From an uncultured cyanobacterium (GTDB taxonomy: Bacteria > Cyanobacteriota > Cyanobacteriia > CACIAM-69d), in the NCBI GenBank assembly GCA_937883785.1, contig CALGDE010000108.1, forward strand, positions 1 to 33,184: a stretch of DNA of 33,184 nt. The letters are read 5' to 3'. The notes under the pieces were generated by a model that saw nothing but the letters and a program-made list of their open reading frames with translations, was not told where the DNA came from and did no database searches. The translations under genes and the position numbers were made by a program. This document shows positions 20,062 through 21,752 of this stretch, one piece after another. Position 1 is the first letter of the stretch. Each line of letters starts with the position of its first letter.

Positions 20062-20084
20062 GGTGCGTCTCACCGTTACCGGGT

Positions 20085-20612
20085 TTAGCCAAGGTCGAAG
20101 GCGTTGGGAATATAGTGCTGTAGCGTCAGGCGGTGGTTGTAGATAACCTGTGGGCTGCCGGGAGCGATCGCTGAGCACTGGTGAGTTAGGTCGATGGGAT
20201 CAATCAGTGATGGTGGTGTTTGGGGTTGGCGATCGCACCGTACTGCTGCCACATCAAAGCGACAGGCATCGTCGCTCAAGTCTGGAAATTCACTGAGAAA
20301 CGTTTGGGCGGCGCGAATTAGTTTGGAGCATTTACTGGGACTTAGGGCGAGTAATCCGTCTTGGTCCCAGTTTTTGCGACTGCGGGTTTTCACTTCGATA
20401 AAGGCGAGGGTGCGGGGTTGGTTTTTTTCCTGGACTTTGGCAGGGATGGGCGATCGCGCCACCAAATCCAGCTCTCCCCATCGACATCGCCACCGCTGGG
20501 CAACCAGTTCCCAAGATTGCTGCCGCAGCCACGCCGCCACAAACGCCTCGCCCAATACGCCCGACTGATGTGAGGATGTTGGCACGGTCGAAAAACTTCT
20601 GAAAAACTTCAC
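20085..20612 (-). CDS. YraN/UPF0102 family predicted endonuclease-like protein
   Basis: A 175-residue member of the UPF0102 family, which has a restriction-endonuclease-like fold and a suggested role in nucleic acid processing. The family core is visible: GVLGEAFVAAWL (about 18-29), then WRCRWGELDLVAR with Glu47 and Asp49, and FIEVKTRSRK with Glu73-x-Lys75, together forming the D/E...ExK site. It is longer than the usual ~120 residues because of a Gln/Pro-rich C-terminal extension from about 135. The start is GTG at 20612, divergent from the toxin-antitoxin module at 20723. Confidence 0.88.
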   Translation of the reverse strand: MKFFRSFSTVPTSSHQSGVLGEAFVAAWLRQQSWELVAQRWRCRWGELDLVARSPIPAKVQEKNQPRTLAFIEVKTRSRKNWDQDGLLALSPSKCSKLIRAAQTFLSEFPDLSDDACRFDVAAVRCDRQPQTPPSLIDPIDLTHQCSAIAPGSPQVIYNHRLTLQHYIPNAFDLG

Positions 20613-20679
20613 TGACTACCGTTACTTTTTATCCTGAACAAGGAGCCGTTCACGCCACCATTTCAAATTGAGTCATCGG

Positions 20680-20694
20680 TACAATATGTATTGT
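20680..20694 (+). promoter_or_regulatory. Promoter-overlapping dyad in front of the EAD1-MntA/HepT module
   Basis: ACAATA-TG-TATTGT (20681-20694) is an inverted repeat with perfect 6-bp arms. It overlaps TACAAT (20680-20685), a good -10 box, about 30 bp before the GTG start. A dyad over the -10 of a toxin-antitoxin operon is the expected place for an autorepression operator, though no -35 at ideal distance is visible. Confidence 0.4.
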
Positions 20695-20722
20695 TCATCC
20701 AACTCGACTACTTTATAGGGCA

Positions 20723-21424
20723 GTGGAATCCAAACGCTGGAATCGTGCAGGCAAAAAAGAATTTCGCCTGGAACTGGTTGATACTTACAAAACCTACAAG
20801 TTCTTGTTGATTTTTGTCGCCGAAGAATTGGGTGAGTCCTTGCCCAAGTTGACTGGAGACACAACTGTGGAAGGTGCCGCGTTTGATTTGATCAACTGGG
20901 CAGAGTCCGAGCACCGACTAGACGAGCTTTTTACGGCGTTCTTATCAGAGAATCCTAACCGCTACTCAGGGCTAGACATCACACAAAATCACTGCGGATC
21001 GGGCGATCGTATTTCATGCAACAAAAGCGCCTTGCCGCTGAGCGATCAAGTAAACACAAGCCAGAATCTCTGGCGGTCAAAACACAGCTTGGTTAAGACG
21101 GACTCTGTCGATGAAATTATGGAAGTGCGTCACGAAGTTGTTGTGAATCGCGACCTTCTAACTAAGCTGTGTAAAAGCCACAACATTCAAGAACTTTACT
21201 TATTTGGCTCGGTTCTACGGGATGATTTTGGGCCCAATAGCGATGTTGACATATTGGTAAAATTTCACCCAGGATGCACGCCTGGTCTGGGCTTTATCGA
21301 TGTTCAAGACAGTTTAAGCAAACTATTTAATCGCCCTGTTGATCTCAACACTCCGGAAGATCTTAGTCCCTATTTCCGCAGTGATGTTCTTGCCGTCGCG
21401 AGACAAATTTATGGAGAAAAGTGA
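20723..21424 (+). CDS. EAD1-like domain fused to MntA-type nucleotidyltransferase antitoxin
   Basis: A 233-residue two-domain protein. About residues 12-80 resemble effector-associated domain 1, a small helical adaptor of bacterial conflict systems: FLLIFVAEELGESLPKL, then EGAAFDLINWAESEHRLDEL and FLSENPNR. A polar linker (81-131) leads to a minimal nucleotidyltransferase with a perfect GSx10DxD site (Gly162, Ser163, Asp174, Asp176) and a third acidic residue in PVDLN (Asp207). MntA antitoxins AMPylate their HepT partner to neutralise it. The stop overlaps the HepT start by 14 bases. The start is GTG 20723 with weak ribosome binding; an internal ATG at 21119 (residue 133) could yield a plain, standard-length MntA. 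Known MntA proteins are about 100-140 residues, so the N-terminal extension is unusual. The EAD1 assignment is by eye and needs a profile search. Confidence 0.8.
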   Translation: MESKRWNRAGKKEFRLELVDTYKTYKFLLIFVAEELGESLPKLTGDTTVEGAAFDLINWAESEHRLDELFTAFLSENPNRYSGLDITQNHCGSGDRISCNKSALPLSDQVNTSQNLWRSKHSLVKTDSVDEIMEVRHEVVVNRDLLTKLCKSHNIQELYLFGSVLRDDFGPNSDVDILVKFHPGCTPGLGFIDVQDSLSKLFNRPVDLNTPEDLSPYFRSDVLAVARQIYGEK

Positions 21425-21752
21425 CGTTGATCGAGTCCAGCATATGCTGGATGCGGCGAAGAAAATCGTTGAGTTTACCCAGGATGTTCAGCGTGCAGAT
21501 TTGGATAGAAATGAGATGCTGTCTTTGTCGGTAGTGCGCCTGATCGAAATCATTGGTGAGGCAGCAAAGCACGTTTCTATAGAAACTCGCAGACAATATC
21601 CTAACGTTCCTTGGCGACAAATATGCGGTATGCGCGATCGCCTTGTCCATGCTTACTACAAAGTAGATTTAGACGTTGTGTGGGGCGTAGCCGCAAGAGA
21701 TTTACCAGAAACTATTCCTGAGTTGGAAAGAATATTGGGAGATTTGAAATAA
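21411..21752 (+). CDS. hepT: HepT-type HEPN ribonuclease toxin
   Basis: A 113-residue all-helical HEPN-fold toxin of the HepT/MntA type. The catalytic motif RX4HXY is intact: Arg75, His80, Tyr82 in MRDRLVHAYY, followed by the typical VDLDVVW. In characterised systems HepT cleaves RNA (mRNA or tRNA 3' ends), and the antitoxin AMPylates the motif tyrosine. I chose ATG 21411, which gives a standard HepT opening (KSDVDRVQHMLDAAKKI); the frame is open further upstream but that part only shadows the antitoxin. The 14-base overlap with the antitoxin gene indicates translational coupling. It ends nine bases before the convergent GT39 gene. Confidence 0.93.
   Translation: MEKSDVDRVQHMLDAAKKIVEFTQDVQRADLDRNEMLSLSVVRLIEIIGEAAKHVSIETRRQYPNVPWRQICGMRDRLVHAYYKVDLDVVWGVAARDLPETIPELERILGDLK

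Follow-up and report, generated by a model that had tools for sequence, protein, structure and literature searches.

An open reading frame that joins an EAD1 adaptor domain to the antitoxin of a HEPN/MNT pair in an uncultured cyanobacterium

The window analyzed here is a stretch of 33,184 nucleotides of DNA from an uncultured cyanobacterium. At the locus of interest, two overlapping genes and a promoter-like element lie between two genes of the opposite strand, with the following features.

20085 to 20612, minus strand: UPF0102 gene, flank; the copy in the sister species is 75% identical
20653 to 21752 (approximate), plus strand: unit present here; in the sister species G001 (contig C515) the flanks adjoin and the unit is absent at this site
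20680 to 20685, plus strand: TACAAT, a −10-like element, 43 nt before GTG 20723
20723 to 21424, plus strand: EAD1-linker-MntA fusion gene, GTG start, 233 amino acids
20738 to 20962, plus strand: EAD1 domain, residues 6–80, Pfam match; helices predicted with moderate confidence at residues 21–36, 39–44, 49–62, and 66–76
20978 to 21025, plus strand: linker motif ITQNHCGSGDRISCNK, residues 86–101, similar by eye to INQEHSGGGDNVGGSK (C100) and VNQDHRSSGDNVASNK (C88)
21026 to 21118, plus strand: 31-codon joint, residues 102–132, predicted to be disordered
21119 to 21424, plus strand: MntA-type minimal nucleotidyltransferase, with internal ATG 21119 and intact GSx10DxD, a short form without the long C-terminal helix
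21411 to 21752, plus strand: hepT, HEPN RNase toxin, 113 amino acids, with RDRLVHAY; PF01934
21762 to 23441, minus strand: PMT-family glycosyltransferase gene, flank; the copy in the sister species is 83% identical

The initial annotation had read the N terminus of the antitoxin as EAD1-like, a reading staked on a match at the profile level, and such a match was found: Pfam EAD1 (PF19955) covers residues 6–80 with 30.3 bits against a cut-off of 24.2, the E-value being 5.9e-7 with the whole protein and 1.1e-7 with the N-terminal 92 amino acids alone. A linker of residues 81–132 leads to a complete MntA-type nucleotidyltransferase (residues 133–233), where Polbeta/NTP_transf_2 matches residues 145–232 and inspection locates the GSx10DxD signature as GSVLRDDFGPNSDVD; the Pfam matches for MNT (PF01909/PF18765) and HepT (PF01934) are all above the curated cut-offs. 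AlphaFold2 modeled with confidence, from residue 132 on, an MNT domain that resembles the solved MNT antitoxins 8xeo, 7ae9, and 7bxo with Z scores of 9–10, and predicted residues 87–129 to be disordered and the EAD1 part to be helical with moderate to low confidence; a Foldseek search of the EAD1 model alone against the PDB returned no useful match.

The in-frame connection of EAD1 to an intact GSx10DxD nucleotidyltransferase, also claimed at the outset, holds: the frame from 20723 to 21424 is open and the motif is intact. The 396 bases of EAD1 and linker contain no in-frame stop, against seven and six in the other two frames. However, the joint of residues 102–132, which resembles nothing found, would stay open in frame by chance in ∼7% of cases, and the open frame alone is therefore not strong evidence for a fusion, so that other evidence is needed. 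Taken with that evidence, the EAD1-mntA open reading frame is very probably real; it is well supported and its translation is likely, while its function is inferred.

The next open reading frame codes for a HepT-like protein (PF01934, E = 1.3e-24), whose RDRLVHAY fits RX4HXY. Its ATG at 21411 precedes the end of the MntA stop codon at 21424, an overlap of 14 bases; overlap and motif are as described initially, and a cognate HepT is supported. The scores for NF047752 (MntA, 42.8 bits) and NF047751 (HepT, 36.6 bits) missed the NCBIfam equivalog cut-off of 60 bits, and because of this the pair is assigned to the wider HEPN/MNT kind and not to the equivalog. HepT relatives, up to 58% identical, sit directly behind MNT genes in other genomes. 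The most closely related MNT-HepT pairs are plain, including the closest one, in genome G026, where MntA and HepT are 59% and 58% identical to those described here and hepT again follows directly.

A second EAD1-MNT fusion was found neither in 33 other EAD1-positive cyanobacterial genomes, nor with the fusion protein searched against 96 relatives, nor in 29 + 5 chosen genomes, nor in 389 class genomes at E 1e-18, nor on plasmids, GTDB contigs, and viral contigs, and several MNT matches in long frames that were inspected carried no EAD1. The genomes sampled were mostly from Cyanobacteria, and fusions in Planctomycetota and Chloroflexota are possible. The initial annotation had counted a lack of homologues with the same fusion against its own reading, and in the genomes searched this is what was found. 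Two known kinds are combined here as nowhere in the literature examined or the genomes searched, and the combination has been seen once.

The EAD1 of the fusion can be placed among relatives of its own. The genome holds 13 EAD1 domains, the fusion's copy included, and they form a genus-specific subfamily with an M-x-W start and an NP-x-H-x-F end, of which the fusion's EAD1 is a member; the subfamily has five matches in the sister species G001 and none in G002–G005 of the same family. At 27 conserved positions, the fusion's EAD1 departs from the consensus five times and the own-genus EAD1s one to seven times, and by this sequence comparison it shows no more decay than its paralogs do. The motif ITQNHCGSGDRISCNK that follows it resembles, by eye, the post-EAD1 motifs INQEHSGGGDNVGGSK and VNQDHRSSGDNVASNK of two own-genome paralogs.

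These comparisons bear on the possibility that the pair landed by accident behind a resident EAD1 fragment, with functional MntA made from ATG 21119 and the EAD1 neutral or being lost. Such an accident would agree with the single occurrence of the fusion, the partly diverged linker, the ∼7% chance of an open joint, the position of ATG 21119 at a normal MntA start, and the replacement of the canonical Met-x-Trp start, but the EAD1 is conserved as well as its paralogs, no stop interrupts its frame over 396 bases, and TACAAT precedes the EAD1 while none precedes ATG 21119; we consider the account doubtful. A vestigial internal EAD1, as in the sister gene G001:C220 (49% identical), was also considered but is disfavored by the promoter-like element upstream and the linker motif.

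The start of translation was left by the initial annotation between 20723 and 21119, and each has something in its favor. The promoter-like element upstream and the conservation of the EAD1 favor GTG 20723. TA[CG]AAT lies 34–42 nt ahead of the ATG in several own-genus EAD1 genes; a chance match in a slot of 21 positions has a probability of ∼1%, which is weak evidence by itself. No TANNNT occurs in 20966–21118, ahead of the internal ATG. The transcript should accordingly carry the EAD1 frame, with the reservation that TACAAT and TA[CG]AAT are consensus matches and do not prove expression. Where the paralogs begin with Met-x-Trp, Lys-Arg-Trp stands here, and because Lys replaces Met, the start rests on the upstream GTG. 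On the other hand, plain MntA relatives have their initial Met close to where ATG 21119 lies, which makes a short MntA also possible. The long EAD1-MntA protein is probably made, and both long and short products may be.

The neighborhood was compared with that of the sister species, where the UPF0102 and PMT genes are adjacent with ∼65 bp between them; ∼1.1 kb is extra here, so that the TACAAT element is present or absent together with EAD1-mntA and hepT, as a single unit. The unit may be a gain here or a loss from the sister species, and the relatives favor neither direction, with UPF0102 and PMT at different places in G003–G005 and no PMT match in G002. Around the unit, a search for terminal repeats or a target-site duplication gave only a 10-bp direct repeat, AACGCTGGAA (20733 and 21773), explicable by chance. 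Between queA and UPF0102, the stretch 20063–20228 likewise fails to align with the sister species. The GC3 of the EAD1 part is 0.56, which is host-like, against 0.39 for MNT and 0.42 for HepT, a contrast that, in samples this small, hints at two origins, a resident EAD1 gene joined locally to an incoming pair. That the assembly itself joined an EAD1 gene to an MNT-HepT pair is very improbable: the source is a single draft assembly of 167 contigs, but the join lies mid-contig within a 1.1-kb unit whose two flanks are collinear with the sister, and the genome has no second near-identical copy of either EAD1 or MNT.

EAD1-bearing proteins elsewhere in the genome, which the initial annotation had postulated as partners, do exist. 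Among the 12 further EAD1 genes, five carry NTPase-like domains (NB-ARC twice and AAA_35 above the cut-off, and two weaker AAA/STAND matches) and four carry FGE-sulfatase-like domains. Further EAD1 proteins are a WD40 propeller protein with a C-terminal EAD1 (L112:2281-3951, minus strand) and a 122-amino-acid EAD1-only protein with a GGGDN-type tail (L106:3399-3767, plus strand), possibly a free adaptor or competitor. At L109:4797-7845 (G000:C132), the gene of an EAD1-AAA ATPase shares 4 bp with xisH, and xisI, a 99-amino-acid open reading frame, an MNT antitoxin gene, and hepT follow xisH on the same strand; this genome thus has a second HEPN/MNT pair with an EAD1 gene nearby, possibly through chance proximity. 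EAD1 was proposed to couple effectors to cores by homotypic contact, with lineage-specific copies closest to each other, and this pairing is a published prediction (PMC7159879).

The explanation we put forward, tentatively and at somewhat below even probability, is that a HEPN/MNT pair resembling type VII was joined to a resident EAD1 gene and is tethered through MntA to EAD1-bearing NTPase proteins; EAD1-dependent control of HepT is put at about the same probability. The domains, the frame, the empty site in the sister species, and the subfamily membership of the EAD1 are observed. An EAD1 above the cut-off and not degenerate, the paralog-like linker motif, TACAAT, GC3, the MNT fold, the other EAD1 genes of the genome, and the published coupling proposal (PMC7159879) also speak for this explanation, and the single genome, Lys-Arg-Trp at the paralogs' start, the well-placed internal ATG, and the sub-equivalog NCBIfam scores speak against it.

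If so, the fusion would stand under the EAD1 gene's own promoter-like region, and MntA would AMPylate the motif tyrosine of HepT as in the characterized pairs, where oligo-AMPylation of this tyrosine blocks the RNase (PMC7641770, PMC11586414). The EAD1, on its flexible tether, might dock homotypically onto STAND/NB-ARC/AAA proteins that bear EAD1 and are encoded elsewhere, and docking would put the MntA-HepT complex at a signaling platform. Once the platform is activated, EAD1-MntA might be clustered or occluded, so that newly translated HepT would stay unmodified and its RNase would act as the effector; a short MntA from the internal ATG might act as a buffer. The release of HepT by recruitment or cleavage of MntA, as first suggested, is not supported in that form, for in the characterized pairs HepT is inactivated covalently by oligo-AMPylation (PMC7641770, PMC11586414), and the removal of MntA should therefore spare only new, unmodified HepT. 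A reading that goes further, in which EAD1 clusters at activated STAND platforms, MntA is thereby withdrawn from nascent HepT, and the selfish RNase module becomes a triggered effector, seems rather unlikely.

Another possibility is that MNT itself is the recruited effector, with EAD1 bringing the adenylyltransferase to a new target at an EAD1 platform and the control of HepT being secondary. EAD1 is described as linked mainly to effector domains (PMC7159879), and in bacterial TRADD-N proteins a pol-beta nucleotidyltransferase is found where the effector lies (PMC8195603), both of which fit this idea. The gene is, however, overlapped by an intact HepT with the acceptor tyrosine, as in ordinary pairs, and plain antitoxins share up to 59% identity with this MntA, so that we regard a role of this kind as improbable.

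Control of HepT through an EAD1-tethered MntA, if true, would amount to a bacterial death-domain-like adaptor governing a toxin–antitoxin pair by way of the antitoxin. The antitoxin–adaptor link, for which this genome encodes a dozen possible partners, would offer a directly testable trigger of HEPN/MNT pairs. It would also show how the predicted multi-component systems for immunity or cell death in cyanobacteria can recruit a toxin–antitoxin pair; the present data suggest, but do not prove, that an RNase toxin–antitoxin pair is wired into such a network of this lineage.

The likeness to the type VII HEPN/MNT pairs of Shewanella oneidensis (SO_3166/SO_3165), Aphanizomenon flos-aquae, and Legionella pneumophila extends from the arrangement, with MNT upstream of HEPN in overlapping genes, to the GSx10DxD and RX4HXY motifs and the MNT fold, for which Z is 9–10 (PMC7641770, PMC11586414), while the N-terminal EAD1, the linker of ∼50 residues, and the sub-equivalog NCBIfam scores set the present pair apart. 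Other MNTs bind HEPN through a long C-terminal helix; the L. pneumophila MNT lacks this helix (PMC11586414) and shares the short form with the MntA described here. A cyanobacterial protein of the cell-death type is also linked to a toxin–antitoxin pair in Microcystis, where the orthocaspase MaOC1 neighbors a ParDE-like pair (PMC7935541), but there a separate protease cleaves the antitoxin, with no fusion, no EAD1, and another toxin–antitoxin family. The word MNT is absent from the main texts of the two papers on EAD1-coupled conflict systems (PMC7159879, PMC8195603). The fusion shares with these systems a genus-specific N-terminal EAD1 followed by an enzyme domain, in a genome that also has EAD1 with STAND/NB-ARC/AAA and FGE-sulfatase-like domains, and differs from them in that the domain fused is the antitoxin of a toxin–antitoxin pair whose toxin is encoded by a separate gene.
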